Positions 4,321-48,420 of a stretch of 64,000 nt of DNA are shown here, piece after piece. The position numbers and the translations under genes are program-made. The stretch's first letter is position 1, and each line of letters starts with the position of its first letter. Under the pieces are notes generated by a model. It was not told where the DNA came from and searched no databases. It was given only the letters and a program-made list of their open reading frames with translations. The stretch spans positions 5,208,001 to 5,272,000 of the forward strand of contig CM065801.1 of the NCBI GenBank assembly GCA_033398695.1, read 5' to 3'. Source of the DNA: Orobanche coerulescens (lineage: Eukaryota; Streptophyta; Magnoliopsida; Lamiales; Orobanchaceae).

Positions 4321-4734
4321 GAATTTAATTAACTTTGAGCCATTCAAAACATGGTAATAAAATCATGAATGAAGGGAGTACAGTAAATTGACATTAATAT
4401 AGATTTACGTTAATAGAATTGATTTAGTATAATATTTTTAACTTAATTCTGACAAAATAAAATATTAAATGTCATGATACTTGAACATAATTAATTAATA
4501 AAATAATAGAGCTCCAAATTTAGATCGACTTAGGGGCTGTTTACTTTTTTTTTCCATTAATATCTGAATGGATTAAGCTGTCTGAGTGGATTAATCTGTC
4601 TGATTAGAAAAAATATCTTATTGTTTCTTTCTTTTCTGAATGAACTATCTGAATGACAGAAATGACCATTTTACCCCTCAATATGAATTAAGTCCTTTTT
4701 GATAAAGGACAGATTGAGCATTTTAGTTTATATA

Positions 4735-6110: not shown

Positions 6111-6357
6111 TTTATGACTTTTAATTATATAATATTAATATATATTTTAAATTTATACTATATATACTCAATTATAATTAAGATTATATGATAACTTATA
6201 TATATACTCAATTCTTTTATTATTAGAGAGGGTAATTTTGGTATATTAGGGAAGTATTTCTGGCTTAATGGTAAGAACACCCCAAAAGTTGCTTAATGAA
6301 AAAGACATTATTAAAATAACAAAATATAGCTGATCGATTAAGCTGATTAAGCATTAA

Positions 6358-14659: not shown

Positions 14660-16556
14660 TGTAACACCCCCACGATATCCGAGGTATATTACAGTGTCGT
14701 GAATCCCTATATGGGACCCACCAGGCTGAACAAGCATCATACTCATCGACTCACAGAAACAACAGAAAAATACCTCGTCATAAAGACGCCCAACAAAATA
14801 ATCCACCCGGTTCAACCGGTCAAACGTAACACCATAATCCATCACAAACATAATAAACAACAATACAATCCCGACGAGTAAAAATTCTTAAGTACTCGAG
14901 TACTTCTATTAGTTTAAAGACCACAAAAGGTAAAAAGATAGAAGGCAATAAGACACCACTCGTGCACAATCATCACGCACGGCCATCATCCGTATATATC
15001 TTGTCCAAAGACCCATTGCCTCGATGAACCTGACCTGAAATTCATAAAATGAATTTCACCAAAACGGGTCCCCAGAGGGGTTAGCAATTACGCTAGTACA
15101 AGTAACCAAATGAACGACTTACATCTTACACATATAGTAAATGCATGCAATCAAGAAAACATAGTTCAAAACACTCATTCCCGGAAATGCCAATATCAAA
15201 TCACATTTGTAAAAATGCACCACAATTAACCGCGGACCCACAGCTTCGTGGATCCCTACCGAGACCCCGTCGGATCTAACCCGTAGTGGTAAAAAGCAAC
15301 TCGCGGTTCCACAGCTTCGTGGAGCCCTACCGAGACCCCGTCGGGTCTAACCCGTAGTGAGTATACACACACACACACAATTCCCATACAATACTACTAT
15401 GTCAAGATCGTAAGTTCATAAGGATACTTGCCTCGGTTAATAGACGGTGATACGAACGGAAAGGAAGAATCGAACACGACCGCGAGGAACCGGCGGAAAT
15501 GAACCTAACGATTCGAATAACACAATCATAACCAACTCTAGACGAATACGGAAATGCAATACACCCGAAAACCCGCCTACGATTCATGTATATTCGTACC
15601 AAAAATAACAACAAGGGCGGACCACAACCAAACCCTCTCGATTCCGTAAAAACCCACAAAATATCCATGAATCCGTAGAAAAGCTAAAGATACTAACAAT
15701 ATTAATCGTATTAATCATGAATCCACCAACAAAACGGAACGAATCGGAAGAAAATCCCAAAACCCCCAAATTATCCAAAAGTAGGGTTCTAAGAGATATT
15801 ACCTTAGAAGATCCAAGTACTATGATCCGTAGAACACGCGTTAGATCGATTATCCGGGCTTCACAACCGAATGAAAATGATGAAAATCGACCCTCAAGTG
15901 ATGAATGATGAGAAGTTCTCCCCTCAACCCTCTCTCTCTCTCGTGCGTAGGTGAAGGAATGGAAGGAAATGGCTGATTTCGCCAAAAAAAACGAAGTTAT
16001 ACAGTTGACCGCATCGTGTGCCGCGGCTCAGCCAAAGTGTGCTGCGGCATAAGCCCAAAATCTGCTCCCAGGGGTAGGCAGTGTGCCGCGGCCCGGCCAG
16101 CGTGTGCCGCGACACCCGGTACAGTCGGGTTTTGGCCAAAAATGCCACACGAGTGTGTCGCGGCCCGGATGGGTGTGCCGCGGCACTGACTCGGCAGTGT
16201 GCCGTGGCCCCGTCGGCGTGTGCCGCGGCACACAGTACAGTCCGCTCGGCCAAAAACTGGAAAAATGTTTGTGCCGCGGCGCACACTCCTTGTGCCGCGG
16301 CCCACACCCCATTTGGGTCCTAAAATGATGAAAAATGATCCGGGAAGAGAATAAAAGCAATAGGAATCAATATTTGGGAAACAATAACACGAAATGGATC
16401 CACGGCAACCCCGAAACGGCGGTTCCGCACAACAATAACGAGAATCAAATCAATAGATGATAGGAAAGATACACTGAAAGATACACGAGGGTTACCACAA
16501 TCGAAAAAATACACCGGAAATGAAAATACAAGGGAAAGAAAAATGCGGATATTACA
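14660..16556 (-). repeat. Tekay 3' LTR (left copy)
   Basis: On the - strand it begins TGTAATATCCGC and ends GGGGGTGTTACA. It carries a 61-bp internal near-duplication containing CCGAGACCCCGTCGG (15229-15360), a (CA)n run near 15364, and a TATAAC box at 15996-16001 (- strand) with a cluster of TGTGCCGCGGC motifs just upstream (16013-16305). Confidence 0.93.
16013..16305 (-). promoter_or_regulatory. Clustered TGTGCCGCGGC motifs upstream of the LTR TATA
   Basis: About a dozen exact or one-mismatch copies of GTGCCGCGGC, each holding the palindrome CCGCGG, sit directly upstream (in element direction) of the TATAAC at 15996-16001. The same array is in the right LTR at 41664-41955. Position and repetition suggest a U3 enhancer array. 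Confidence 0.5.
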
Positions 16557-18610: not shown

Positions 18611-19678
18611 ATGTCGAGTTCTGACAAGGGAAAGGGTATTGCTACATCTCCCAAAAAATCCAAAATGTCCAAGTTCGAGCGAATGGGTCTTTGGGTCAAA
18701 TCGAAGAAACCATCTGGAATAATTATTCGGGAGCCCCAAAACCAAACTCCACCCGGTTTTGAAAATGAAAGTCAAGAACCTGAATATGATGTTACACATG
18801 AAAATATCTATTACGGTAGTACAACAACTACCAGTGAAGAAGAAGTTGATCTCCGGGATTTCGACGTGTCCCGAATCGTCAACAACCGCAAAACATCGAC
18901 GAAGAAATGGACCATGAAATCGATGAAGCTATGTTAAATCAAACATATGCAACATTCGAGCGCACTCTTCATGGCGTACCAACTCCGACGCAAAAATCAA
19001 AGTCGGCGCCCCGCGGCAAGCCAAGTCAAGAAGAACCTCCTTATGTTGAGGAGTTATCGTCCGAGGAAGAAAATGTGAAAGGCAGAGGAAGCAAGAAAAG
19101 TAAAGCAAGAAACAAGCCTCGCCCTTGCAGAAAGGAGACCGTATCCGTACTTTTTCAAAACACTTTAAGAAGGAAAAATGCGGATGGTTCGATTAAGGTA
19201 TCTTGCAACTATCGCTCGAAAGAGTATCCGTATAAAGCCGGGATGGATATGGAAATTTTAAAAGGCATTTTGAAAATAACCATGCCTCGGTCCACGGAGA
19301 ACAAAAGTCACAAAGTCAACTCAACTTCCAACCTTCTATCGGAGCCTAGCTGACGGCAATCAAGGTATGTCTGAATCTCAACTTTATAAATATAATGAAA
19401 AAATTGCTAGAGAACAAATGGCAAAATTATGTGAACAAGAATCTTTACCTTTTAATTTTGCGGATAGTACGGTTTGGGAATACAGGATGCAAAATGCCTA
19501 TAATCCTGCTATTAAAAGAATTCCACGTACCACAATGACTAGACAAGTAGTATACTTAGCCAAACAACATAAACTTGCACTACGAGCTTATTTTAGATCT
19601 ATAAATCATAGAGTTTCTTTAGCTGCAGATACTTGGGCAGATTTTAAACAAAAAAATGATTATATGGGAATAACTATA
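18611..19678 (+). pseudogene. hAT transposase, N-terminal part (BED finger)
   Basis: Starts MSSSDKGKGIATSPKKSK after a CT-rich leader; upstream in-frame ATGs are less likely. The frame shifts near 18890 (to ...NIDEEMDHEIDEA) and near 19243, where the DGYGNFKRHFENNH part of a BED zinc finger continues in another frame. A third frame (19367 on: YNEKIAREQMAKL... SLAADTWADF... YMGIT) holds the hAT core start. In the BED finger the second Cys of C..C appears as Arg (CNYRSKEY). The sequence ends at the CTATA target of the inserted element. Confidence 0.88.
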
Positions 19679-22600
19679 TGTAACACCCCCAATCCGCTCA
19701 GGGATATTACACGCCGTAGAACCTTTCCTCAAGGATCTACCAGGCTGGTAACGACATTTAACATCTCGACAATGCCTTCGAGGCTACAATGACTCAGTAG
19801 ACCGATTTGGTCTTTCCACAAATACATACAACTCAAATACAACTCATGCCCACGCAGGGGACAAAATACAACTACACCTGCATAACGGAACAATACAAGA
19901 AATGAAAATAAAGTACAACTGAACCAACACACGATGTACGGTTCCTCATGTGATTAGTATCGATCATCTTTCATCATCCTTCATGCCGACCCTGTGTTAT
20001 GCTCCAAAACCTGAATGCAAACAGACATCCACCCCGAATACTGGGGTTAGCAAACTCCACCGTTTTGCTAGTGCAAATACAAAGTGCAAATACGAGCCAT
20101 ACAATTCACATTCCACGAATAACAATAACCGAGGATCCTCAAAGATCCAAACGAAACGAAAAGTACTTCCCGAGGCAAGGGTTTGAGAAAACATTTCAAA
20201 AACGAAATATCATAAATCAATGGAAGTAATTTATAAAACAGTTTAGAATGCCATCGAGAGTTTTAATAGAAAACAATTTGGGATTATCAAATCCTACTTT
20301 TCGAAAACCAAAAGACAAAAGGGGTCACCGCCCCAAAGGTTTACTTTCTGAAAAATGACATTAACCAACCGTTGGGATTTTAGCCCCAACCAGAAACGAC
20401 TTTTACAAAACCATTGGGATTTTAGCCCCAAATCTCATCAACTCACAAGACACAAGAACGACTGTGAGGTTCGTATCCCAACATCAAAATCCACAAATAA
20501 AAGATTTAAAACAAACAACAAAATACTCCAAAGGCCATCCTAGCCAAGTAAGCCAAACGAACACTTACCTCTTACACACTTAGTCAATGCATGCAATCAT
20601 GAAAACCGTTCAAAGCACTCATTTCCGGAAATGCCAATAACAAATCACATTTGCAAAAATGCACCACAATTAACCGTCGATCCACACCTCCGTGGACCCC
20701 TACCGAGACCCCGTCGGATCTAACCCGTAGTGGTTAAAAGCAAAGCTCGTCGATCCACACCTCCGTGGACCCCTACCGAGACCCCGTCGGATCTAACCCG
20801 TAGTGAGCATACACACACACACGTTACTCATGCAACACTAATATGCTAAGAATGTAAGTTCATTACGAATACTTACTAGAGATGGCCATTAACTCGACAC
20901 CATTATCAAACTCTTCAAAATTACGATAACAAGATTAAATAAGGAAATACACGATTCCATAGCTTAAACAATATGAGTATCATCATAAAATCCTTCGACG
21001 TTCAAAATAATCAATTCATAATCGATTCTCAAAACACCGTTCACAAAACACACGCGTTTTGAAAGAAAGCCTTTAACGAGGCCAAACCGAAATTCCTTTG
21101 AAACGTCATTTCAAATAACCAAACAAACACATCAAGACGACCACCGATCATCATATACATAAAACGAGAAAAATATGGGCAAGGTACTTGCCTCGATACC
21201 ACGAGCACGGAACCACGAACGGATACGGCTCAACCGGGAAGCTTCGGAACGCCCGATGCTAACGAAAAGGAATACGACAACGAACGGAACGGAAGAATCA
21301 AGCACGACCGCGAGGAATCGACGAAAATGAACCTAACGATTCGAATAGCACAATCACAACCACTTCTAAATGATTACGGAAAAGGAATACACCCGGAAAC
21401 CCGCCTACGATTCATGTATATTCATACAAAAATAACAACGAGGGCGGACCACAACCAAACCCTCTCGATTCCATAAAAATCCACAAAATATCCATGAATC
21501 CGTAGGAAAACTAAAGATACTAACAATATCAATCGTATACATCATGAATCCACCAACGAAACGGAACGAATCGGAAGAAAAACCCAAAACCCCCAAATTA
21601 ATCGAAATAGGGTTTTAGAGCATTACCTTGGAAGATTCGAGTACTAAGATCCGTAGAACGCGCGTTAGATTGATTATCCGAGCCTCACAACCGAAAAGAA
21701 ATGATGAAAATCGACCCGGATGAAGAACTCTCTCCTCTCTAACTCTCTCTCTCGCGACTCGGTGGAAAAAAATGGGAAAGAATGAGCCGCTCACGCTCAA
21801 AACCACATTTATAGTGCAACACAAACAGAACCTATAAAGCCGCCTATCGGCCGATAGGCCCAACCGATACCCATACGGGATGCCGCAGAGAGTCTATCGG
21901 CCCCCTATCGGCCGAAAGGCTCCTGGAAGTGCTCGGCCAAAATCAAACGACCATAACTCTCTCGTCCGACTCAGATTGACTCACCGCTTGAACCATTGGA
22001 AAGCTAACTCGATGTTCTATAATATTGCAAGATTTATAATTTTTGGAGTTACCAAAAATTAATGGTGATCTAACAAAGACGAACTCATACTTAGAAAAGT
22101 CGTTTAGAAATCCCGAATTCAACAAAACGACACCGAAACCCGAACTCGAATACGAACCGAAGATACGGTTACGAAGTACTCACAAAGACGAATCTAAGAG
22201 CTAGTAGGACACACGATTCCGACCATCCGAAGGCTCGAAATTCGACAACGGAAGGTAATTACCCCAAACTTTGGGAAATTACGAAAATGGCCCAAAGGCC
22301 CGAAAATCACGATACGTGATCGAATAACCAAACCGAAGTTCACAACACGTCCAACAAAGATAAACGGACTTGCGGGAAACTCGAAACAACAGCTTCGGAT
22401 GAGATTCGCAAGAATCGAACTCAAGTGCGGAAAAGTCGCTAAAAAGCACGTAACTCAACGAAACGACACCGAAACGAACTCGGATGTCAAAAGTGTAGAA
22501 TTAATCATTCTCGAATGACGAAACGGTCATGAGAGAGTCGCCAAACGGACTCCGACCGAAAAAAAAGAAATTACCGGAATCGAAAATTGCGGATATTACA
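19679..22600 (-). repeat. Left (3') LTR of the non-autonomous Tekay relative
   Basis: Begins TGTAACACCCCC and ends GCGGATATTACA on the + strand. It holds two copies of a ~60-bp block (GATCCACACCTCCGTGGACC...), a (CA)n run at 20810 and, on the - strand, a TATAAAT box (21807-21813). Upstream of that box is the perfect palindrome CCTATCGGCCGATAGG (21843-21858) and related CTATCGGCC motifs. Confidence 0.93.
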
Positions 22601-24854
22601 TTCTACCCTCCTTAAAAGAAGTTTCGTCCGAAACTTAAAACAAGTAGGAGAAGAAATATTCCGCCAGAAAACTCAACGAGACACACAAGAATTCGTAACT
22701 AATGCCCAACGGCGAAATGTTACAAACAACGCAAAGGAATATACGGCGTGTAAACACGCTCCACGGTGACCAACACAACGTCGCCGTTAGGGATATAATA
22801 AAACCGACAAGTGACAAGCGTCATCAAACGGATACTATAGTCAAGTCAATTATCCGATAATCACAAAACACAACGAACGAAAATCAACATGATTGACCAA
22901 CCCAACGGTACCTCAATCAAAACGCGAGTCAACCGCTGAACAAACACGGAATCCCATCGCCTAAGGGATGGAAGATTGAAAACGAAACTAATTTCCCGAA
23001 CTAAAGGGAATTACGAAGGAGCCTGAACGTTCAACAATCACGAAACGAGAACAAAAACCGAACAAACAAACGATCGAGACAACAAAAATCGAAGAATCAT
23101 GTTCGAATCACGAAGAACAATAAAGTTCAACAATAACTCCCAGGATGATCTGGTGAGAACTACAAGACATGCATTCCCATAAAGATCCACAGGAAAGGGA
23201 ATAGCGATTGAAAAGTCACAACGACAAATAAGTTATTCCGAAATGATATCACACTCGTTCGATAAACAAAAACAAGGGCAGGACAAGCTCAGAAATGTCA
23301 ACGAACATAAATGAGTCGACAAAGTAGAAAATACAGAAGTTCAAAATCCGATCCTTCAATAAAAGGACTAGTAGAACCAAATGATGTTACTCCAACAAAG
23401 TTCACAAGAATCGAACCGAACTCGAAAAAAGTCACACCGATAACCGGATCGCCCACAACAAGATCACACTGCTCGGACGATGAAATCAAATACCGAACAA
23501 GTTCATAAAGTACCAACGAACATGAGCGAATCGATAGATCGGGAAGAGAAAACACGAAGTCAAAATAGTACGGGCATTACCTCCGACCTCGCCCACGAAA
23601 TTCACAAAAACGGAGCAAGGTAACAAGACATTAAACAATCGACGATAACGGAACCATCACCGATGCACACGGTCATACCAAATCAAGCTCTAACAGCTCG
23701 CACATGCGCGACAACGCAGAAATTGCCATGAGGCGACAACATTCAATACCAACACTCCGCCTCTCACAGGGGCTAGCACAACCAATGTGTGGAAAGCGTC
23801 TCAACGCTCACACCGCCAATTCGGTCATACTCGGGAGAAAGTATCAAAAGGACAACGCGAACATCACACATACATACCTTCAAACGGGAATGGATAGGTT
23901 TTAAAAACGAAAACTTCATTTTGAAAATAATTTAGAAGAACACCGATTGATCTTGAGTATCATCTTTCAAAAAAAAGTACAAACGTGAAACATCGTTATC
24001 GAGACATTGGAGAACCATTTCGCATTTGATAAAAATGAAGATACTTTCTCTTAGTGAAAACTTTCAAATTATTCGACCCTCGGGTCTAAATAAAAGTGTT
24101 GAAAATATTTCAAAACCTTTTGGTCCTCGAGGTAGAAAATTTTTGAAATACATTGTGGCATCTAGGATGTACCACAAGAAAATAACTCATTTGAAAAGTA
24201 TGTCTCGAAATTTATTTTTTTTAAGATACTCAAGGTTTTCAAAAATCCAATAGGCCAGAATGCCCAAAACTCACACATACCGACGTTCACTAAAACAACT
24301 CCTAGCACACGCATCAAAACGTTTAAAATCAAGACAATACAAGTCTTTAAACGAAAATAAACGATAAAATACCACATTCGTAACAAAACCGCTTATAAAA
24401 TACCCTCCCGCACTGGCTTGTGAACAAGTCGATCGTGTATAAGCACAAAGCTTCCACTAGAGACTTGTAAAACGTGCAAATCGATTCGAAAATCATCAAC
24501 AACGGAGAAAAACAACTATAAAAAGACATCACAACGATTTACACTCCTCGTATAAATCAAATACGAGAGTCGACTAAATACATATCGTGAAATCAAAATT
24601 CACATAAAATTCCACCACTTAACAAATAATCATAAAAATAGCTCGTGTCACACGAGGCACAACACAAAGAAGGGAGACTTACTTCCACAGTCGCACGAAG
24701 ATGATGATCGCCCACGATACTAATCACGACCAACAAACTCAAACGACGCGTCGCGACACGACTCGATCAGATAAAAATCCAACGAAACAAGACTCAAACA
24801 ACACGACTTGACCCGACAGCCTAGGTTCCTCAACCTAAGCTCCGATACCATTTA
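22601..24854 (-). other. Interior of the non-autonomous Tekay relative, no ORF
   Basis: Contains the PPT zone at its left edge and the PBS at its right edge. No open frame over about 85 codons and no recognisable gag, protease, RT or integrase motif on either strand. Composition is A/C-rich with many short CGA/ACG words. Confidence 0.75.
24839..24850 (-). other. Primer-binding site of the non-autonomous Tekay relative
   Basis: TGGTATCGGAGC on the - strand, four bases inside the 5' LTR; matches initiator-Met-tRNA PBS TGGTATCAGAGC with one change. Confidence 0.85.
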
Positions 24855-27769
24855 TGTAACACCCCAATCCGCTCGGGGATATTACACGCCGTAGAACCTT
24901 TCCTCAAGGATCTACCAGCCGGTAACGACATTTAACATCTCGACAATGCCTTCGAGGCTACAATGACTCGAGACCGATTTGGTCTTTCCACAAATACATA
25001 CAACTCAAATACAACTCATGCCCACGCAGGGACAAAATACAACTACACCTGCATAACGGAACAATACAAAGAATGAAAATAAAGTACAATCGAACCAACA
25101 CACGATGTACGGTTCCTCATGTGATTAGTATCGATCATCTTTCATCATCCTTCATGCCGACTCGTGTTATGCTCCAAAACCCGAATGCAAAACAGACATC
25201 CACCCCCGAATACTGGGGTTAGCAAACTCCACCGTTTTGCTAGTGCAAATACAAAGTGCAAATACGAGCCATACAATTCACATTCCACGAATAACAATAA
25301 CCGAGGATCCTCAAAGATCCAAACGAAACGAAAAGTACTTCCCGAGGCAAGGGTTTGAGAAAACATTTCAAAACGAAATATCATAAATCAATGGAAGTAA
25401 TTTATAAAGCAGTTTAGAATGCCATCGAGAGTTTTAATAGAAAACAATTTGGGATTATCAAATCCTACTTTTCAAAACCAAAAGACAAAAGGGGTCACCG
25501 CCCAAAGGTTTACTTTACGAAAAATGACATTAACCAACCGTTGGGATTTTAGCCCCAAATCCAGAAACGACTTTTACAAAACCATTGGGATTTTAGCCCC
25601 AAATCTCATCAACTCACAAGACACAAGAACGACTGGAGGTTCGTATCCCAACATCAAAATCCACAAATAAAAGATTTAAAACAAACAACAAAATACTCCA
25701 GTGCCATCCTAGCCAAGTAAGCCAAACGAACACTTACCTCTTACACACTTAGTCAATGCATGCAATCATGAAAACCGTTCGAAAGCACTCATTTCCGGAA
25801 ATGCCAATAACAAATCACATTTGCAAAAATGCACCACAATTAACCGTCGATCCACACCTCCGTGGACCCCTACCGAGACCCCGTCGGATCTAACCCGTAG
25901 TGGTTAAAAGCAAAGCTCGTCGATCCACACCTCCGTGGACCCCTACCGAGACCCCGTCGGATCTAACCCGTAGTGAGCATACACACACACACGTTACTCA
26001 TGCAACACTAATATGCTAAGAATGTAAGTTCATTACGAATACTTACTAGAGATGGCCATTAACTCGACACCATTATCAAACTCTTCAAAATTACGATAAC
26101 AAGATTAAATAAGGAAATACACGATTCCATAGCTTAAACAATATGAGTATCATCATAAAATCCTTCGACGTTCAAAATAATCAATTCATAATCGATTCTC
26201 AAAACACCGTTCACAAAACACACGCGTTTTGAAAGAAAGCCTTTAACGAGGCCAAACCGAAATTCCTTTGAAACGTCATTTCAAATAACCAAACAAACAC
26301 ATCAAGACGACCACCGATCATCATATACATAAAACGAGAAAAATATGGGCAAGGTACTTGCCTCGATACCACGAGCACGGAACCACGAACGGATACGGCT
26401 CAACGGAAGCTTCGGAACGCCCGATGCTAACGAAAAGGAATACGACAACGAACGGAACGGAAGAATCAAGCACGACCGCGAGGAATCGACGAAAATGAAC
26501 CTAACGATTCGAATAGCACAATCACAACCACTTCTAAACGATTACGGAAAAGGAATACACCCGAAACCCGCCTACGATTCATGTATATTCATACAAAAAT
26601 AACAACGAGGGCGGACCACAACCAAACCCTCTCGATTCCATAAAAATCCACAAAATATCCATGAATCCGTAGGAAAACTAAAGATACTAACAATATCAAT
26701 CGTATACATCATGAATCCACCAACGAAACGGAACGAATCGGAAGAAAAACCAAAAACCCCCAAATTAATCGAAATAGGGTTTTAGAGCATTACCTTGGAA
26801 GATTCGAGTACTAAGATCCGTAGAACGCGCGTTAGATTGATTATCCGAGCCTCACAACCGAAAAGAAATGATGAAAATCGACCCCCGGATGAAGAACTCT
26901 CTCCCTCTCTAACTCTCTCTCGCGACTCGGTGGAAAAAAATGGGAAAGAATGAGCATTTCACGCTCAAAACCACATTTATAGTGCAACACAAACAGAACC
27001 TATCGGCCGGCCTATCGGCCGATAGCCCAACCGATACCCATACGGGATGCCGGCAGAGAGTCTATCGGCCCCCTATCGGCCGAAAGGCTCTGGAAGTGCT
27101 CGGCCAAAATCGAAACGACCATAACTCTCTCGTCCGACTCATTGACTCACCGTTTGAACCATTGGAAAGCTAACTCGATGTTCTATAATATTGCAAGATT
27201 TATAATTTTTGGAGTTACCAAAAATTAATGGTGATCTAACAAAGACGAACTCATACTTAGAAAAGTCGTTTAGAAATCCCGAATTCAACAAAACGACACC
27301 GAAACCCGAACTCGAATACGAACCGAAGATACGGTTACGAAGTACTCACAAAGACGAATCTAAGAGCTAGTAGGACACACGATTCCGACCACCCGAAGGC
27401 TCGAAATTCGACAACGGAAGGTAATTACCCCAAACTTTGGGAAATTACGAAAATGGCCCAAAGGTTCGAAAATCACGATACGTGATCGAATAACCAAACC
27501 GAAGTTCACAACACGTCCAACAAAGATAAACGGACTTGGGAAACTCGAAACAACAGCTTCGGATGAGATTCGCAAGAATCGAACTCAAGTGCGGAAAAGT
27601 CGCTAAAAGCACGTAACTCAACGAAACGACACCGAAACGAACTCGGATGTCAAAAAGTGTAGAATTAATCATTCTCAGAATGACGAAACGGTCATGAGAG
27701 AGTCGTCAAAACGGACTCCGACCGAAAAAAAAAAGAAATTACCGGAAATCGAAAATTGCGGATATTACA
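24855..27769 (-). repeat. Right (5') LTR of the non-autonomous Tekay relative
   Basis: Near-identical partner of 19679-22600. Differences are mostly small indels (for example ACCCCC/ACCCC at the start, CCTG against TCG near 25163). Palindromic CTATCGGCC motifs are at 26999-27080. Confidence 0.93.
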
Positions 27770-27774
27770 CTATA

Positions 27775-28429
27775 CACTGGATTGATGAAAATTGGAACTT
27801 AAACAAAAGATTACTTGCGTTTAAAAAATTTAATTGTACACATAGTGCAGATAATATAGCTAGAGCAATTATTAAAATTTTAACTTTTTATTGCTTAAAA
27901 GATAAAATTTTCACAATTGGTTTTGATAATGCTAGTTCTAATCGCAAGTGTACCAAAGATTAATACAAGCTTGCAATCCTGTTTTAGCGGGTCGATTATT
28001 TCATACTAGATGTATATGTCATATTCTAAATTTATGTGTACAAGATGCATTAAAATTTGTAGATGAGGCAATAGAACCAATTAGAAAATGTGTCTTGTTT
28101 TTACATAATCGCACTAAGTTAGCTAGACAATGGGTAAAATTTTTAAAGTCAAAACAAATTCAACCCAAATTTTTTACTCCAGACGTCAAACATAGATGGA
28201 ACTCAACTTATGAGATGTTAAATTCAACTAATGAATATAAAGAATTATTGTGTGAATTTTTTGATACGTATTTTCACGTAGAAGGATTTTATTTATTGCC
28301 AACGTATTGGGATGAAACTAAAGATTTAATAAAACTATTAAGGGTTTTTGAAAATGCAACTAAAGATTTAAGTGGTTGTTATTATCCCACGTCTCCTAAA
28401 GTTTTATTTCATTGTTGTTTTATTGTATC
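27775..28429 (+). pseudogene. hAT transposase, middle part
   Basis: Joins in frame with the N-terminal part when the CTATA insertion is removed (YMGIT-I-HWIDENWNLNKRLL). Core hAT motifs follow: FTIGFDNASSN, then after a one-base frameshift near 27950 GRLFHTRCICHILNLCVQDAL, and DVKHRWNSTYEML... PTYWDET. It ends at target GTATC of the second insertion. Confidence 0.92.
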
Positions 28430-30408
28430 TGATCGGCCAAAAACTTATCCTAAAAATAGGAGTTCTTGAGTCGCTCGCAAATATATACGAGGTAGAAGTA
28501 GTTTGTGGTAAGTTCTACCAAGGTCTTTTCTCTCGAGGATTGTCCAATGAGCTTCGTATAATTTTTGTTACAAATTAGAAATAAATACTAAAATATTAAA
28601 AAAGATATTTTTGGGTTTTTTAAAAATTAACTAAATTAAAATGCACTATATTTTAAACCAAACTATTTTTATTAAGACTATTTATACTAGACTATTTATA
28701 TTAGACTATTTATACTAGACTATTTATATTAGACTATTTATATTAAAACTATTTTTATACTAGACTATTTTTAACTAGTGAAAATGAATAGAATTAAAAT
28801 AAGTTGGAATTTATAAAATCTAGGGGATTACGGGTTCATTAAATTAGGTTTTTAATTAAGTATAGGAATTGATTTATATGGATATAAAAGAAAAAACGAA
28901 TGTTTATCGAGTAATCAACTTTTCACCTCCGTACTTTCGTAATCAAAGATGTCTTAATCGCTGTCACTTTTTTAAGATGTTGATAACAAGATTACCACTT
29001 GATAGATTGAAAAGATGTGTTTCCAATACACTTAACAATCAATCAAGGAGGTTTCACTCGTAGAAATAGGATATGATCAATCTCTATTTAAACCAATTAG
29101 TCCTTTCATTTCTCTAACTTGACTATTTTTAGGATAAACGATCGTTCATCGAGTAATCAACTTTTCACCTCCGTACTTTCGTAATCAAAGATGTCTTAAC
29201 CATTTTCGCAATCTTAAGATGTTGATAACAAGATTAACATTTGATAGATTGAAAAGATATGTTTCCAATTCACTCAACAATCAATCAAGAAGGTTTCATT
29301 AGTAAAAATAGGATATGATCAATCTCTATTTAAACCAATTAGTCCTAAAAATAGTTTAAATCAATCAAATACTCAATATATAACCTAATAGAAATCCCCC
29401 TTCCCCTAGGAAGAAAGATTAGCTACTCATTGGTTTATACAAACTAAAATTATAATAGAAATAATGATATATATAATATATATATAGAAACTTTTAATTA
29501 CTAGAACTTAATGACAATAGATAAAACTTACTTGAATATGATGAATCAAAGTGCAAGAAACAAACTTCAAAATATAACTTTAAACTTGTTTAAAGGTTAC
29601 AAGCTTACAAAAATTGAAAGTAAAATACTAAGTGCTTATTGATCAAGCACTTTTCAATTACAAACTAAATGAAAGAAAAACTTCAAACCAAAAATAAAAT
29701 ACAAACTAAAATTGAAAGTTCTAAGGAAAATATATTGCTAAAGGAAAGGAGTATTTCTTAGCAAGAAGTTGAGGATTTCTTGGTAAGAAGGTGGGTTATT
29801 TTGCAATGGGTGAAGATGTCCTTTTATAGGTGATTTTCAAGAATACAATTGATTATTTAATTCAAAATATCTATTGTAATATCATTTTTTTAATTCTTTG
29901 TTCACACTTCACCCATGTCTTTGAATTTTCAGATTTTTGACCAAAAAAATATCTTGTGGTTGAGTTCACAAGTTGGTCAAAAGTGGACTAATTTTGCATG
30001 GCATCTCGAAAACGGCGATGAAAACGCCGGTTGCCTCGTGTTGTGCGCCGTTTTGTGCTGACTCGGTCTCTTCCGGAATACGCGCGAGGACACGGCGCTA
30101 AATGCCGGCCGTGTGTGAAACGGCCCAAGACACGGCCCTTGTTGTGCCGTATGTGAAACGGCCTACATAACACGGTCCTGTTTGTGCCGTGTTGTAGGTC
30201 GTTTTGCCTTGAAAAATTCCCGTCGTTGGATTTGATCTTGTTTTCCGTCCTTTTTGATGCTTCATGTCAGTAATCTGTAAAATAACCATTTTTAGCTCAT
30301 GTTTGGATATATCTGTAAAATATATATTTTTAATCACAAATCAGTACAATTATGCCCGGAAAAATGAATATTTTGTATATGAATTTTAGATCAATTATGC
30401 ACGAATCA
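28430..30408 (-). repeat. Left (3') LTR of the LOG-carrying element
   Basis: Contains a ~245-bp internal tandem duplication (AGTAATCAACTTTTCACCTC at about 28910 and 29151), short repeats of ACTAGACTATTTATATTAG (28685-28765), and a GC-rich patch with repeated ACACGGC/AACGGCC words (30000-30210). Confidence 0.93.
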
Positions 30409-31996
30409 AATACCCCACACTTAAATTCTTGCTAGTCCCGAGCAAGACTCTTTATTAATCACACACAAAATAAAAATTAAAATAAGACATAAAATAAAAA
30501 ATAAAAAATAATACACACAAATTTAAGAAAAATAATTATATATAAAGATAAAAAGAGATCAAAATGCCATTAATACACAATAACCAACTTTATACAGTAG
30601 ATAGAAAATGAATCAAGATTCAAAATAAATCTACTAACGATTTTGAAGTTAAAACACGGTTTTTATTTTTGTAATTCCAAAATACAAGGTTTTCCACCCA
30701 AAAGGTTGATTATTTCTTTCCCACTCGTGACTTCACACGACTCCCTTTAATGGTTGCTCTCGATCACTCGTTTATTTTTCGACTCAATATGAAGAAAAAT
30801 TTCATCGGCGTCATCAAATATTGTGATTTTCACAAAATTGAGTGTATTGAAATTCAGCTGCTAATTAATTCAAATCTGCTCATAAACTACATCCCTTTTA
30901 GTGATAGCTTTCACACCGTTATTTGCTAACGTGTAGCTCTTTTCACTAACACAATTTCTATCTCATTATTTTTCTTTCGTAAAAAGGTGATAGCTTTCAC
31001 ACCGTTATTTGCTAACGTGTAGCTCTTTTCACCAATTTTTCGAGACGGCACTACGCACCAACAATGGTTAGTCCTTTATTTTTCGCAAAATTTAAGACTT
31101 CCAAAATTAGGCATTTATTCTGCTCAACACTTCTCCTTTTCGTCATTTATTTTTAGGTGATAGCTTTCACACCGTTATTTGCTAACGTGTAGCTCTTTTC
31201 ACCAATGACTCCTTTTTTAGGGAATAGAATTTTGCAGAAAATCATTTTTAGTTAAGCATGAAAATCAAAACTCCACAAATTAAGTAAATTTCGCTTTATT
31301 TTTCATCAACCAATTGATTCTTCTTTTATCAAGGTAACGAATGACTCGATTTTATATGATAATTACAAGGCTTGGAAAGAGAGATTAAGGCTCAAAAATT
31401 TTTTGGAATATACAATTTTTTTACCGGTTAAAACAATATTAGAAGCTTGTATATAGTTAATTTATTGGTGTTTATGGCCAGATCTAGAAATCTCACAAAT
31501 CAAAATACTATATATATATATATATATATATACTAAAAAAAAATTTAAGGCAAATAAAAACACACCAAAATACTAACACACTAAAACATACTACAACAAA
31601 CCACCCCCAAACTTGAAAATAAACTGTCTCGGTTTATAAAATAAAAATAAAAATCAATGCGTAAAAGTAATACTCCCGTTAAGAAAGTTGATGTCTCGAG
31701 CCTAACGCCTTTTAGAATCTGCAAGAGAATAAATATACGAGGCACACACAAAAGAAAATAAAATATACTCGTAAGTATAACATAATTTTTAGATGCGCAT
31801 CAAGAAAGTCCGAAGAGTCGCCTTACGCGCCATCAAAGTTTTTATAAAAGCAAAACACGAAATAAAAATTACAAAGAATACATAAATCGCGAATAGATGC
31901 GCAAGAGATCAAGAAGAAACTCCTTAAGCCGCCATCATTTAGCACGATTATTACACACGACGTAAAGTAAAAATACAAGAGGTCCGTCATGGGTTA
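30409..31996 (-). other. Non-coding 3' interior of the LOG-carrying element
   Basis: No ORF of note. Holds the PPT zone at 30409-30425, three hairpin repeats (30901-31204), a (TA)n run near 31510 and A-rich sequence. Confidence 0.7.
30901..31204 (-). repeat. Three copies of a 48-bp hairpin
   Basis: Copies at 30901-30947, 30986-31034 and 31156-31204 are almost identical. Each starts GGTGATAGCTTTCACACCG and ends GTGTAGCTCTTTTCACC. The two halves are imperfect inverted repeats (CGTTA...TAACG core), so each can fold into a stem-loop. They lie upstream of the PPT in element direction. Confidence 0.85.
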
Positions 31997-32635
31997 TCAA
32001 AGGGAGAGGAATGAATCCACTTTTCGCTTTCTCACCGTAAAATCTTCTACCCATACAATTTTAGCTAGAGCCGGATCTGGTTGAGGAACAAATTCATTGA
32101 GTTTTTGATTAGTTCTTCCGTGTGGTTGCAACGACTATGATTCGTTTAGCACGCTCGGAAATAAAACCCTTTTCGGCAGAGTAGTCGATGAAAGACAAGA
32201 AACCATCAAAGAAACCATTGACATTAAGCACTCCTATTGGTTTTGATGAACATTTAGTCGGGCCTGTAACCACATGAAAAAGTTCCTCAAGGGTGCCAAA
32301 ACCACGGAAGGGCGATAAAGGCGCTGAATTATTTATCATGTGAGTTATGCGATCTTGCATATTCACGATCTAAACTCATCTCCAATAGTTGACCGGTGAT
32401 TTTACTTTCACCAGAGGTTTTGGGATTACTCCCAATACTCTTACTCCTTCCATATAGGCGTATGACAGCACTCGTCCCATTAATCCTAGACTTCCTCCTC
32501 CGTAAACTACATGAATGCATTTTTCTCCTAAGGTACGACCTAAGTCGTGGGTACTTCATGAAGCATGCCTCTTTTCCGTAACTAGATCCACCAAAATGCA
32601 GACTGTAAAATTTTTGTGGAAGATGATGACTCCAT
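31997..32635 (-). pseudogene. Intronless LOG-family gene (cytokinin riboside monophosphate phosphoribohydrolase)
   Basis: LOG enzymes release active cytokinin base from the nucleotide in one step. From an ATG at 32633-32635 (MESSSSTK...) to a TGA at 31997-31999 is 639 nt, the length of a ~212-residue LOG protein. Family segments appear in order: GGSSYGKEA, VVYGGGSLGLMGRVL, VRVLGVIPKPL, then FGTLEELFHVVTG, KPIGVLNVNGFFDGFLSFID, EKGFISERAKRIIV and NEFVPQPDPALAKIVW. They fall in different frames, so about four small indels break it. The catalytic PGGxGTxxE appears as SPFRGFGTLEE, with the two Gly after Pro altered. Typical LOG genes have several introns; none is present. It lies in the sense direction of the retrotransposon. 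Confidence 0.82.
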
Positions 32636-32712
32636 TTTTGAAAAGAAATTTATTTAGAGAGAAAAAGAGAAAAGTACAAGTTTGAGGGATGAATAAAAGA
32701 AACAAGCACAAA

Positions 32713-32722
32713 GGTTATTTAT
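32713..32722 (-). promoter_or_regulatory. TATA box upstream of the captured LOG gene
   Basis: On the - strand CTATAAATAA lies about 80 bp before the LOG ATG and is followed by a CT-rich, 5'-UTR-like leader. The captured unit may therefore include promoter sequence. Alternatively the box is chance AT-rich sequence. Confidence 0.4.
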
Positions 32723-32942
32723 AGAAGAAAAGATGAGGAAAAATTGTTTAACAAGTTTGTGATTGCGTTGATTGCGCTTCAACTACTCAATAGAATAATG
32801 AATGCATTTATCGCGTATCACATTTTTATTCGTAAAATCTCACCATACGACAAAATAAAAGATACTCACGTGTATGTACGGAGTTGTGATTGTGGCTCAC
32901 ATCTTCCTCTCGATTTTACGTCGTAAACGGCCTAAACGCCTT

Positions 32943-33488
32943 CTATGAGTCGGGGAGAAGCTTCCCATCCAATTTTCTTACAAATTGGCAAACAGGGTCT
33001 TTTAACGTCAGATTCCCAAGACGTTGTTCATATTCTGGTTTAAATTTATTCCACAAACATTGAATTCCGTAATATACAAGTCCACTAGGATGCGTGTCAA
33101 GAGAAATTTCGATATTATCTAAATTCACCTTATTCAGACCATCATTAATGAACTGAATTTTATCTTCTCTGTTTGTAGATGGAATTCCTAAAGATCGACA
33201 TTTTGCATTACAGTTCCATCTAGCACATTTATAGCAAACGGCTATAATCTTTGCTCGTCGTTTCTTGGCATATGAACTTTTTCCAAGCCCTGGTAAGAAT
33301 CTAGTTGGTGTTTCTGTGAATTCACCTTCTATTCTTACTTTGGCTTCGATAATGAATCTTATGTCAAAAGGTATGCTTTTATTCGTAAGCAACCTCATCC
33401 TTTCAAGCCTTGTCTTGTAAATTTTTAAAATTGCATTTTTGCTTAGAAAGGGAAATCTTTTTTCAATTTTATACAATGTTTCTTCCAT
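32943..33488 (-). CDS. Unidentified 181-residue ORF in the LOG-carrying element
   Basis: Open frame from ATG 33486-33488 (MEETLYKIEKR; an upstream in-frame Met at 33518 is less likely) to TAG at 32943. It begins about 150 bp after the PBS, where gag would normally start. It has no resemblance to gag that I can see. Features: basic N-terminal half (KIYKTRLERMRLL), the segment RFLPGLGKSSYAKKRRAK, then a Cys cluster CYKCARWNCNAKC (C-x2-C-x4-C-x3-C, zinc-knuckle-like), and an acidic/hydrophobic C-terminal half (DTHPSGLVYYGIQCLWNKF). Uninterrupted, unlike the neighbouring LOG gene. It may be a second captured gene or an element-specific protein. Confidence 0.5.
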   Translation of the reverse strand: MEETLYKIEKRFPFLSKNAILKIYKTRLERMRLLTNKSIPFDIRFIIEAKVRIEGEFTETPTRFLPGLGKSSYAKKRRAKIIAVCYKCARWNCNAKCRSLGIPSTNREDKIQFINDGLNKVNLDNIEISLDTHPSGLVYYGIQCLWNKFKPEYEQRLGNLTLKDPVCQFVRKLDGKLLPDS

Positions 33489-33641
33489 GATAAAAACAAA
33501 ACAAAAATAAAAAGACAATGAAAATAATTAAAAAAAATATATACAAATATCAGTTGTTGTGGGAAACGAAAATCCGACTTTGATAGTCACGAGTACCGTT
33601 ATCCGCCACTTGACCGAAGAAAAATTATATTTGGCCTAAAA

Positions 33642-33664
33642 CAATCCCCGAACGGCGCCAAAAT
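33642..33664 (-). other. Primer-binding site of the LOG-carrying element
   Basis: TTTTGGCGCCGTTCGGGG on the - strand next to the 5' LTR; like the TTTGGCGCCGTTGCCGGGG sites of Athila/Tat elements. Confidence 0.85.
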
Positions 33665-33665
33665 T

Positions 33666-35647
33666 TGATCGCCAAAACTTATCCTAAAAATAGGAGTTCT
33701 TGAGTCGCTCGCAAATATATACGAGGTAGAAGTAGTTTGTGGTAAGTTCTACCAAGGTCTTTTCTCTCGAGGATTGTCCAACAGGGCTTCGTATAATTTT
33801 TTGTTACAAATTGCGAGAAATAAATACTAAAATATTAAAAAAGATATTTTTGGGTTTTTTAAAAATTAACTAAATTAAAATGCACTATATTTTAAACCAA
33901 ACTATTTTTATTAAGACTATTTATACTAGACTATTTATATTAGACTATTTATACTAGACTATTTATATTAGACTATTTATATTAAAACTATTTTTATACT
34001 AGACTATTTTTAACTAGTGAAAATGAATAGAATTAAAATAAGTTGGAATTTATAAAATCTAGGGGATTACGGGTTCATTAAATTAGGTTTTTAATTAAGT
34101 ATAGGAATTGATTTATATGGATATAAAAGAAAAAACGAATGTTTATCGAGTAATCAACTTTTCACCTCCGTACTTTCGTAATCAAAGATGTCTTAATCGC
34201 TGTCACTTTTTTAAGATGTTGATAACAAGATTAACACTTGATAGATTGAAAAGATGTGTTTCCAATACACTTAACAATCAATCAAGGAGGTTTCACTAGT
34301 AGAAATAGGATATGATCAATCTCTATTTAAACTAATTAGTCCTTTCATTTCTCTAACTTGACTATTTTTAGGATAAACGATCGTTCATCGAGTAATAAAC
34401 TTTTCACCTCCGTACTTTCGTAATCAAAGATGTCTTAACCACTTTCGCAATCTTAAGATATTGATTACAAGATTAACATTTGATAGATTGAAAAGATATG
34501 TTTCCAATTCACTCAACAATCAATCAAGAAGGTTTCATTAGTAAAAATAGGATATGATCAATCTCTATTTAAACCAATTAGTCCTAAAAATAGTTTAAAT
34601 CAATCAAATACTCAATATATAACCTAATAGAAATCCCCCTTCCCCTAGGAAGAAAGATTAGCTACTCATTGGTTTATACAAACTAAAATTATAATAGAAA
34701 TAATGATATATATAATATATATATATATAGAAACTTTTAATTACTAGAACTTAATGACAATAGATAAAACTTACTTGAATATGATGAATCAAAGTGCAAG
34801 AAACAAACTTCAAAATATAACTTTAAACTTGTTTAAAGGTTACAAGCTTACAAAAATTGAAAGTAAAATACTAAGTGCTTATTGATCAAGCACTTTTCAA
34901 TTACAAACTAAATGAAAGAAAAACTTCAAACCAAAAATAAAATACAAACTAAAATTGAAAGTTCTAAGGAAAATATATTGCTAAAGGAAAGGAGTATTTC
35001 TTAGCAAGAAGTTGAGGATTTCTTGGTAAGAAGGTGGGTTATTTTGCAATGGGTGAAGATGTCCTTTTATAGGTGATTTTCAAGAATACAATTGATTATT
35101 TAATTCAAAATATCTATTGTAATATCATTTTTTTAATTCTTTGTTCACACTTCACCCATGTCTTTGAATTTTCAGATTTTTGACCAAAAATATCTTGTGG
35201 TTGAGTTCACAAGTTGGTCAAAAGTGGACTAATTTTGCATGGCATCTGCTAAAACGGCGATGAAAAACGGCCCGCTTTGCCTCGTGTTGTGCGCCGCTTT
35301 GTGCCGACTCGGTCTCTTCCGAATACGCGAGGACACGGCGCTAAATGCCGGCCGTGTGTGAAACGCCCAAGACACGGCCCTTGTTGCGTCGTATGTGAAA
35401 CGGCCTACATAACACGGTCTGTTTTGCGCCGTGTTGTAGGTCGTTTTGCCTTGAAAAATTCCGTCGTTGGATTTGATCTTGTTTTCCGTCCTTTTGATGC
35501 TTCATGTCGATGAATCAGAAATAACCATTTTTAGCTCATGTTTGGATATATCTGTAAAATATATATTTTTAATCACAAATCAGTACAATTATGCCCGGAA
35601 AAATGAATATTTTGTATATGAATTTTAGATCAATTATGCACGAATCA
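33666..35647 (-). repeat. Right (5') LTR of the LOG-carrying element
   Basis: Close partner of 28430-30408. Most differences cluster in the GC-rich patch (35250-35460) and near 33780-33815. Confidence 0.93.
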
Positions 35648-35652
35648 GTATC

Positions 35653-40320: not shown

Positions 40321-42195
40321 TGTAATACCCCCAGGATATCCGAGGTATATTACAGTGTCGTGAATCCCTATATGGGACCCACCAGGCTGAACAAGCATCA
40401 TACTCATCGACTCACAGAAACAACAGAAAAATACCTCGTCATAAATACGCCCAACAAAATAATCCACCCGGTTCAACCGGTCAAACGTAACACCATAATC
40501 CATCACAAACATAATAAACAACAATACAATCCCGACGAGTAAAAATTCTTAAGTACTCGAGTACTTCTATTAGTTTAAAGACCACAAAAGTTAAAAAGAT
40601 AGAAGGCAATAAGACACCACTCGTGCACAATCATCACGCACGGCCATCATCCGTATATGGTCCAAAGACCATTGCCTCGATGAACTCCGACAAATTCATA
40701 AAACGAATTTCCCCACAACGGGTCCCCGGAGGGGTTAGCAATTACGCTAGTACAAATAACTAAATGAACGACTTACATCTTACACATATAGTAAATGCAT
40801 GCAATCAAGAAAACATAGTTCAAAACACTCATTCCCGGAAATGCCAATATCAAATCACATTTGTAAAAATGCACCACAATTAACCGCGGACCCACAGCTT
40901 CATGGATCCCTAACGAGACCCCATCGGATCTAACCCGTAGTGGTAAAAAGCAACTCGCGGTTCCACAGCTTCGTGGAGCCCTACCGAGACCCCGTCGGGT
41001 CTAACCCGTAGTGAGTATACACACACACACACAATTCCCATACAATACTACTATGTCAAGATCGTAAGTTCATAAGGATACTTGCCTCGGTTAATAGACG
41101 GTGATACGAACGGAAAGGAAGAATCGAACACGACCGCGAGGAACCGGCGGAAATGAACCGAATGATTCGAATAACACAATCATAACCAACTCTAGACGAA
41201 TACGGAAATGCAATACACCCGAAAGCCCGCCTACGATTCATGTATATTCGTACCAAAAATAACAATGAGGGCGAACCACAACCAAACCCTCTCGATTCTG
41301 TAAAAACCCACAAAATATCCATGAATCCGTAGGAAAGCTAAAGATACTAACAATATTAATCGTATTCATCATGAATCCACCAACAAAACGGAACGAATCG
41401 GAAGAAAATCTCAAAACCCCCAAATTATCCAAAAGTAGGGTTCTAAGAGATATTACCTTAGAAGATCCAAGTACTATGATCCGTAGAACACGCGTTAGAT
41501 CGATTATCCGGGCTTCACAACCAAATGAAAATGATGAAAATCGACCCTCAAGTGATGAATGATGAGAAGTTCTCCCCTCAACCCTCTCTATCTCGTGCGC
41601 AGGTGAAGGAATGGAAGGAAATGGCTGATTTCGCCAAAAAAACGAAGTTATACAGTTGACCGCATCGTGTGCCACGACTCAGCCGAAGTGTGCCGCGGCA
41701 CAAGCCCAAAATCTGCTCCCAGGGGTAGGCAGTGTGCCGCGGCCCGGCCAGCGTGTGCCGCGGCACCCGGTACAGTCGGGTTTTGGCCGAAAATGCCATA
41801 CGAGTGTGCCGCGGCCCGGACGGGTGTGCCGCGGCACTGACTCGGCAGTGTGACGCGGCCCCGTCGGCGTGTGCCGCGGCACACAGTACAGTCCGCTCGG
41901 CCAAAAACTGGAAAAATGTGTGTGCCGCGGCGCACACTCCTTGTGCCGCGGCCCACACCCCCTTTGGGTCCTAAAATGATGAAAAATGATCCGGGAAGAG
42001 AATAAAAGCAATAGGAATCAATATTTGGGAAACAATAACACGAAATGGATCCACGGCAACCCCAAAACGGCGGTTCCGCACAACAATAACGAGAATCAGA
42101 TCAATAGATGATAGGAAAGATACACGAGGGTTACCACAACCGAAAAAATACACCGGAAATGAAAATACAAGGGAAAGAAAAATGCGGATATTACA
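40321..42195 (-). repeat. Tekay 5' LTR (right copy)
   Basis: Partner of 14660-16556; only about three substitutions in the first ~130 bases, so the insertion is fairly recent. Carries the same TGTGCCGCGGC cluster (41664-41955). Confidence 0.94.
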
Positions 42196-47934: not shown

Positions 47935-48300
47935 TTATCCCCGGCACTTTGTGACGGAGCTGCATTTTCGAATGTACGGATTCACTGCGCCCTTTGAATT
48001 TGGATTGCAGTTGTTGTAGTACGAAGACCCGCGCCGGGAGCAGGGGACACTGCCCGGCTTAAGCGCACCGTAGCTGAGGTACTTCTTGGTGGCTAACATG
48101 CGCCGGCTCACTTCGGAATCCATGTCGAACTCGCCCGTGCCGTCGGCCATACACTCGGCGATCGATCCTTGGCAAGTCGCCGGATTGTCCATCGGTGTCC
48201 AGCTGGAGTATCCGCCGGAATCGGCGATGGTGAGGAGGAAGAACGCGGACAATACTGCGGCGGCGATGAGGAGGCGGAAAATGAGATCAGGTTTCGCCAT
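47935..48300 (-). CDS. Rapid alkalinisation factor (RALF) prepropeptide
   Basis: Single exon of 121 residues. RALFs are secreted peptides bound by CrRLK1L (FERONIA-type) receptors that raise apoplastic pH and restrain growth. Residues 1-27 are a signal peptide (hydrophobic LLIAAAVLSAFFLLTIA). The propeptide carries the dibasic site RRML (66-69) recognised by the subtilase S1P. The mature peptide starts ATKKYLSYGAL, holding the receptor-binding YLSYGAL motif, and has four Cys (87, 98, 113, 119) for two disulfides, ending TKCRG. Mature length ~52 residues. Most like the RALF1/RALF23/33 type. Start is the only Met before the signal peptide; the TATA box is at 48411-48420. Confidence 0.96.
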   Translation of the reverse strand: MAKPDLIFRLLIAAAVLSAFFLLTIADSGGYSSWTPMDNPATCQGSIAECMADGTGEFDMDSEVSRRMLATKKYLSYGALKPGSVPCSRRGSSYYNNCNPNSKGAVNPYIRKCSSVTKCRG

Positions 48301-48410
48301 TCGTCGACTGTTTTCTTTCTTTCCTATTAATTTTGGCTCTTTTTCGGCTTTGTCTGATTCAGAAAGGAAAGTGAGCGGGATGATGATGGCATTGGCATGG
48401 CAGGCAGGGA

Positions 48411-48420
48411 CTTATATATA
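48411..48420 (-). promoter_or_regulatory. RALF TATA box
   Basis: TATATATAAG on the - strand, about 110 bp upstream of the ATG. Confidence 0.6.

Follow-up and report, generated by a model that had tools for sequence, protein, structure and literature searches.

The locus described here raises the question of what an LTR retrotransposon without gag and pol carries between its LTRs, and whether this cargo does anything for the element. It lies in a stretch of 64,000 nucleotides of Orobanche coerulescens DNA (contig CM065801.1, hereafter the window, whose numbering is used throughout), for which a sequence-only reading had proposed that such an element harbours a gene for LOG (cytokinin riboside 5'-monophosphate phosphoribohydrolase).

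Anatomy of the element

The element occupies positions 28430-35647 on the minus strand, where it is inserted into a hAT transposase, and is bounded by a target site duplication, GTATC, that can be read directly at 28425..28429 and 35648..35652. Its LTRs (3' LTR, 28430..30408, 1979 nt; 5' LTR, 33666..35647, 1982 nt; both minus strand) have TG...CA ends and show 34 mismatches over 1968 aligned bases. Between them we found a polypurine-tract-like (PPT-like) stretch (GAATTTAAGTGTGGGGTATT, 30409..30428, minus strand), which resembles AATTTAAGTTGGGGGG of a related contig, L001, and a primer-binding-site-like (PBS-like) stretch (TGGCGCCGTTCGGGGATTG, 33642..33660, minus strand), recognised by sequence resemblance and presumably of the tRNA-Asp type. 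As both stretches lie on the minus strand, the element and its LOG segment are read from right to left. Paired LTRs, target site duplication, and PBS- and PPT-like stretches define an LTR retrotransposon, as first proposed, and the absence of gag and pol noted at the time is borne out: no gag, protease, reverse transcriptase (RT) or integrase was recognised between the LTRs in the lists of open reading frames (ORFs) or by Pfam, with which six small internal ORFs gave no match, and the gag-pol reading frames of an autonomous element are missing. The internal region also contains three copies of a 52-nt hairpin repeat that had gone unmentioned before (minus strand; 30899..30950, z -2.30; 30985..31036, z -3.05; 31155..31206, z -3.05).

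A broken LOG and an open carlavirus-type frame

The LOG segment (31997..32635, minus strand) runs without introns from an ATG at 32635 to a TGA ending at 31997. An intact 218-residue relative aligns across 32635-32000, with strong matches over its residues 30-177 and 183-218 and a weak one over residues 1-12, and the similarity to LOG is far above chance, given the matches to Arabidopsis At2g37210 in the PDB (E 3.2e-26), of one frame piece to the Lysine_decarbox/LOG domain (PF03641, E 3.6e-14), and to the best Orobanche protein (E 2.7e-55), in agreement with the family assignment made earlier. The pieces, however, sit in different frames with internal stops between them, the region of the PGGxGTxxE motif is altered, and identity between the in-frame part and three intact relatives from Orobanche is 63-69%. 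Of the full-length, intronless LOG gene originally described, the full length and the lack of introns thus stand, but this copy is, as sequenced, a pseudogene incapable of encoding LOG. It shares its family with the Arabidopsis LOGs At2g37210 and At5g11950, whose PGGxGTxxE-type motif recurs in its intact relatives, but lies a long branch away from them in the tree and differs in being intronless and broken. A TATA-box-like stretch (TATAAATAA, 32715..32723, minus strand) lies about 80 nt upstream of the LOG start, by resemblance only.

An intact ORF of 181 codons (32943..33488, minus strand), overlooked in the sequence-only reading, encodes a carlavirus-type nucleic-acid-binding protein (NABP), with a basic patch followed by a C-x2-C-x4-C-x3-C finger. 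It scores above the Pfam cut-off for Carla_C4 (24.8 bits against 20.9) and just under that for Viral_NABP (22.4 against 23). At E≤0.01, Carla_C4 is matched by 61 of 62 aligned NABPs, with a best E of 3.7e-8, and Viral_NABP by 60. The six best matches in BFVD, none significant alone, are all plant-virus silencing suppressors or nucleic-acid-binding proteins and, at 77 (a fragment) to 133 residues, are shorter than the 181 residues found here. No relative was found in the PDB at E≤0.001 (none at E≤1 with a single protein; best profile matches at E 0.82 and 0.89), in scans of viral contigs with the NABP P0012 and the NABP alignment A2, or in a scan of phage records, and the structure model is poor (pLDDT 64.6). 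The basic patch, the cysteine finger and Carla_C4 are shared with the cysteine-rich NABPs of carlaviruses, such as those of potato virus H and chrysanthemum virus B (p12) as presented in PMC3689765, but the finger of potato virus H is there given as C-X2-C-X9-C-X4-C, and the NABP of the window is carried by a retrotransposon. Between the window and L001 its pairwise dN/dS is 0.36. The intact cargo of this element is, to judge from its reading frames, not LOG but the NABP, a member of a putative silencing suppressor family.

L001, a mis-binned plant contig, contains in order an Athila-like integrase (rve, E 2.4e-16), an NABP and a PPT-like stretch, and is 71% identical at the DNA level to window positions 32882-33616 over 752 bp, non-coding flanks included; it carries no LOG. 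Its integrase was identified by Pfam and the end of its RNase H by eye, with little room between the two for an archaeal RNase H, and its NABP occupies the post-integrase "envelope-like" position. Because that NABP lies between integrase and PPT, the element in the window looks like an internal-deletion derivative of a fuller Athila-like element. With the Athila clade of OTA Ty3/gypsy elements, in what Neumann et al. 2019 (PMC6317226) report of it, it shares the style of PBS and PPT, a 5-bp target site duplication, long LTRs and an extra ORF, but it lacks gag-pol and its extra ORF is carlavirus-type. That survey counted extra ORFs from at least 250 codons upwards, so that ones of 181 or 218 codons are too short for it.

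The earlier description of an OTA (Athila/Tat-type) element carrying an entire LOG without introns seems correct, but its supposed novelty does not hold: retrotransposons with a LOG are already on record, since PMC9289625, which in turn cites Steinbauerova 2011, describes LOG-type (YgdH) domains in consensus sequences of Ty3/gypsy elements from Citrus and Populus. Those consensuses likewise place a LOG-family domain inside Ty3/gypsy but carry RT, which the element in the window lacks; a search of the main text of PMC9289625 for carlavirus and for nucleic acid binding finds neither term. Extra ORFs are also reported in PMC11728184 for active sunflower Athila and Tekay elements, and its authors consider that the dsRNA-binding extra proteins of Tekay possibly parallel viral silencing suppressors. 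The sunflower Athila elements thus resemble ours in having extra ORFs, but the extra proteins characterised there are Transposase_32-type or transmembrane, unlike Carla_C4 or LOG. In the literature searched we found no description of a LOG paired with a viral-type gene, nor of LOG amplification in broomrapes.

Linkage and spread in other broomrapes

NABP and LOG are adjacent, near each other or fused in gene models of Orobanche minor, O. hederae and O. gracilis. In O. minor, two of the four listed NABP representatives have consecutive locus tags with a LOG (020768/020769 and 009435/009434; rough chance 6e-5), and in O. gracilis one of six lies four tags away (024434/024430); for the remaining two and five, no LOG is listed at a distance of up to five tags. 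A single O. hederae model, P0177, combines an NABP (residues 1-118, like P0001, 73%, E 9.8e-70) with a LOG (residues 125-335, like P0121, 88%, E 1.7e-136). Another model, P0230, consists of a LOG and a copia-type gag domain, which suggests that gene models can join unrelated neighbours. Equal sizes of LOG- and NABP-bearing contigs were set aside as a sign of linkage, as two of the five pairs (905 and 1006 nt) are too short for both genes; above 1300 nt there are three such pairs (2425, 2128 and 1386), against 0.43 expected. A common NABP-LOG spacer was likewise dropped, as the same spacer is present in the LOG-less L001.

At the level of proteins predicted by gene models, as for the NABPs, the relatives of the LOG in the window point to an amplification in broomrapes: 95 of the 120 listed clusters, with at least 830 listed member sequences, are represented by O. 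minor, O. hederae or O. gracilis. The catalytic motif is exact in 79 of the 120 listed relatives, and it is present in the 218-residue proteins that represent two of the clusters, one of 244 and one of 328 members; many broomrape copies look intact. Given these cluster and motif counts, the LOG is not a one-off of this element. The clade is found in several eudicots, in a tree that broadly tracks host relationships, with exceptions, and in the Orobanche sequences variability is lower at sites that are conserved elsewhere (Spearman 0.26, P 9e-5), a modest correlation that suggests constraint. A scan of viral contigs with the LOG P0121 found no relatives.

Cargo, passenger or artefact

To our knowledge, no function has been assigned to most of the extra ORFs that plant OTA elements carry. 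For the present one, we give roughly even credence to the reading that it is a non-autonomous, internally deleted, Athila-like (OTA) member of Ty3/gypsy with two cargo genes that act on the host cell, the NABP nearest the 5' LTR and the intronless LOG next. Autonomous relatives would supply in trans the proteins that move it, the NABP may bind nucleic acid and blunt RNA silencing in the host cell, and LOG would release active cytokinin, which could favour dividing, meristem-like cells and hence the inheritance of new element copies; the element would thereby benefit from both products. From the copy in the window, the NABP alone could still be made. Because this LOG is broken and L001 has none, LOG is dispensable for movement, and not every relative carries both genes.

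The same two facts are also what one would see if LOG were a passive passenger, captured and copied along without benefit, whose intact copies are simply young. We regard this as quite possible, if short of probable: the adjoining NABP stays open where LOG is broken, and the catalytic motif is missing in 41 of the 120 listed relatives, but mere carriage fits poorly with the recurrence in several eudicots of a clade whose tree broadly tracks that of the hosts, with the 218-residue, motif-bearing representatives of the two clusters mentioned and with the apparent constraint in Orobanche. That the breaks are assembly errors in a gene intact in the plant is improbable. The LOG match does change frame several times, and 34 of the 59 differing LTR columns fall within one 300-column stretch, which suggests local sequence error; the 546 nt of the adjoining NABP nevertheless read open, and the divergence of the in-frame LOG from its intact relatives exceeds what a few errors would produce. 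The lack of introns would also suit a separate, later retrocopy unlinked to the element family, but we consider this very unlikely, as gene models from three species of Orobanche connect the two genes, no poly-A tract is seen by eye, and direct repeats shared by the two flanks tested (32636-32760 and 31850-32000) do not exceed 8 nt.

Returning to the two-gene cargo, a stronger form, in which a retrotransposon lineage keeps the pair under selection as a cassette for host manipulation and has, in broomrapes, raised the number of active LOG genes to hundreds, is put forward tentatively and seems to us rather doubtful. If true, the NABP-LOG link and the hundreds of predicted broomrape LOG relatives would tie the success of a transposon to the proliferation of host cells, and the multiplied active genes would possibly alter the parasite's own hormone biology. 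As for the NABP, a conserved ORF akin to virus silencing suppressors, located after the integrase in L001, suggests a counter-defence role against RNA silencing, and this candidate is smaller than the size cut-off of the earlier survey.

A gag/pol-less element with a disrupted LOG sequence

The LTR retrotransposon at 28430-35647, which PBS-like and PPT-like stretches place on the minus strand, is delimited by the TSD GTATC on both flanks (28425-28429 and 35648-35652) and by paired LTRs (28430-30408 and 33666-35647; 34 mismatches in 1968 aligned bases), confirming the exact ends assigned to it in the sequence-only reading. It interrupts a hAT transposase, whose right-hand piece matches Dimer_Tnp_hAT (E 7.3e-22) and whose left-hand piece (27942-28427), without a Pfam match, was assigned by eye. 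As that reading had also stated, the element has no recognisable gag or pol: ORF inspection between the LTRs recognised no gag, protease, reverse transcriptase or integrase, and six small internal ORFs searched against Pfam gave no match. Between LOG and the PPT we also observe a 52-nt repeat in three copies (30899-30950, 30985-31036 and 31155-31206), each of which folds as a hairpin (z -2.30, -3.05 and -3.05, in order); the first differs from the others on both sides at the foot of its stem, with pairing kept.

The similarity to LOG (cytokinin riboside 5'-monophosphate phosphoribohydrolase) proposed for 31997-32635 is real: a PDB search with a single-frame piece in which stops were written as X finds At2g37210 (E 3.2e-26), and one open piece matches PF03641 (E 3.6e-14). 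The sequence runs from an ATG start to a TGA stop (32635-31997, minus strand) and, without introns, matches the intact 218-residue Orobanche protein P0121 strongly over residues 30-177 and 183-218 and weakly over residues 1-12 (E 1.4; E 0.14 for the P0125 counterpart), yet the matching pieces lie in different frames and hold internal stops. The claim of a full-length, intronless LOG gene thus stands for length and lack of introns, but the gene is dead as sequenced. Part of the disruption could come from sequence error, since 34 of the 59 differing LTR columns are concentrated in a single 300-column stretch. Nor is LOG in an LTR element unreported: PMC9289625, citing Steinbauerova 2011, describes the YgdH domain, which LONELY GUY proteins share, for LTR-retrotransposon consensuses from Citrus sinensis and C. 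clementina and, once a count filter was removed, from Populus trichocarpa.

A carlavirus-type gene and its place in a fuller element

Missed by the earlier reading, an intact 181-codon ORF (32943-33488, minus strand) lies between the PBS and LOG and encodes a carlavirus-type nucleic-acid-binding protein (NABP). It scores 24.8 bits against Carla_C4, above the Pfam cut-off of 20.9, and 22.4 bits against Viral_NABP, just under the cut-off of 23; in an alignment of 62 sequences (the window protein and the 61 near-full-length ones among 120 listed relatives), 61 have a Carla_C4 match and 60 a Viral_NABP match at E<=0.01. Of 229 relatives 120 are listed; those with a named source come from Orobanche minor, O. 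gracilis, Xanthoceras, Acer and Populus, and none of the 120 has a virus as its named source. The AlphaFold model is weak (pLDDT 64.6, pTM 0.29); compared with viral structures, this predicted fold has as its best six matches only silencing suppressors or nucleic-acid-binding proteins (E from 0.15 to 2.5, each short of significance by itself), from Fig latent virus 1, Helleborus mosaic virus, potato virus H, chrysanthemum virus B, sweet potato chlorotic fleck virus and cowpea mild mottle virus, all placed in Betaflexiviridae. Among the matches listed from the open-licence PMC literature, no title or abstract start points to a plant retrotransposon with a carlavirus-type protein; extra ORFs were counted from at least 250 codons in PMC6317226, and double-stranded-RNA-binding extra proteins of Tekay were already likened to viral silencing suppressors in PMC11728184.

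Contig L001 (DAIEQH010000041.1, 3330 bp), filed in a Candidatus Nomurabacteria MAG, looks like plant retrotransposon DNA. It holds, in order, an integrase ORF (rve E 2.4e-16), 207 nt, an NABP ORF and AATTTAAGTTGGGGGG, and is 71% identical to window 32882-33616 across 752 bp that take in non-coding blocks flanking NABP on either side. By eye alone, an RNase H end can be made out so near the integrase, on its upstream side, that an archaeal RNase H would hardly find space between them, an arrangement that, going by PMC6317226, appears to suit Athila more than Ogre or Retand. NABP can thus occupy the post-integrase position, the site of envelope-like ORFs, and the window element appears to derive from a fuller element by loss of gag-pol from the PBS to a site just upstream of NABP. 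Pairwise dN/dS between the two NABPs comes to 0.36, at a synonymous divergence that is already high (pS 0.51). Near-identical DNA is found at the NABP 3' end (window about 32880-33020, minus strand; L001 about 2270-2410), where the last 26 codons include 20 same-residue codons, 19 of them identical, compared with 50 of 89 in the preceding part (Fisher P 7e-4), and identical non-coding blocks of ~25-29 nt stand before and after NABP, the conserved upstream stretch spanning about 33575-33615 (minus strand) in the window and 1670-1700 in L001. This conserved DNA may be a cis-acting RNA signal.

Apparent LOG amplification in Orobanche and the wider clade

The LOG search gave 165 matches, of which 120 are listed; at least 95 of these are clusters with Orobanche representatives of the close type (55 O. 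minor, 33 O. hederae, 7 O. gracilis), comprising at least 830 member sequences (328 and 244 in the two largest clusters), which are predicted proteins rather than verified loci and whose species is known for the cluster representative only. The PGGxGTxxE motif is intact in 79 of the 120. LOG occupies the next locus tag in two of the four listed O. minor NABP representatives (rough chance 6e-5, estimated with the 57 LOG tags listed and the 35,001 coding sequences given in PMC13192451) and lies four tags away in one of six in O. gracilis; the other two and five, respectively, have no listed LOG within five tags. One O. hederae model, P0177, joins an NABP-like part (residues 1-118; P0001, E 9.8e-70) to a LOG-like part (125-335; P0121, E 1.7e-136), the latter alone being recognised by Pfam. 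Gene models can mislead on linkage, as in P0230, where LOG is fused with a copia-type gag domain. Searches for LTR, transposable and cytokinin gave no hit in PMC13192451, on the three Orobanche genomes, and LOG amplification in broomrapes is absent from the titles and abstract starts of the listed open-licence PMC matches.

A LOG profile search (7936 matches, 120 listed) includes, among those listed, several same-clade clusters in Rehmannia, Paulownia, Reevesia and Xanthoceras; three listed Xanthoceras models have 336-381 residues, and P0241 carries two LOG domains. Our tree of 106 sequences comprises 55 from Orobanche (205-222 residues; 40 of 95 excluded by length), 7 of 10 listed from Rehmannia, 4 from Paulownia, 18 from Reevesia, 2 from Diplodiscus, P0283 of Populus, P0287 (which we grouped with P0283), 11 environmental, 4 small-contig O. 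minor and two Arabidopsis sequences, and the window piece, leaving out Xanthoceras and the remaining matches. The window LOG groups with the Orobanche set (support 0.75), followed outward by environmental P0244, Rehmannia, the four small-contig O. minor sequences and Paulownia, while Populus, Reevesia and Diplodiscus form a separate group. This order is broadly in line with host relationships, except for the four O. minor sequences outside Rehmannia, which reveal either a second lineage or a different source. Sites conserved elsewhere vary less in Orobanche LOG (Spearman 0.26, P 9e-5), a modest indication of constraint.

A possible role, and the surrounding sequence

Autonomous relatives are the likely source of the proteins that move the element. 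Its NABP probably binds nucleic acid and blunts silencing, while LOG would raise active cytokinin and so favour dividing cells. That LOG is instead a passive passenger of the element is a serious rival, because the window copy is dead and LOG was not found in L001.

Around the element, nested insertions span 14660-42195, where a long repeat pair (14660-16556 and 40321-42195) with Ty3/gypsy-like ORFs, assigned by eye, surrounds a further pair (19677-22600 and 24853-27769) and the interrupted hAT. The window also holds a tandem array at 4734-6179, with a period of about 176 bp from self-match offsets, and a RALF peptide precursor ORF at 47938-48411 on the minus strand (PF05498, E 3.8e-22).
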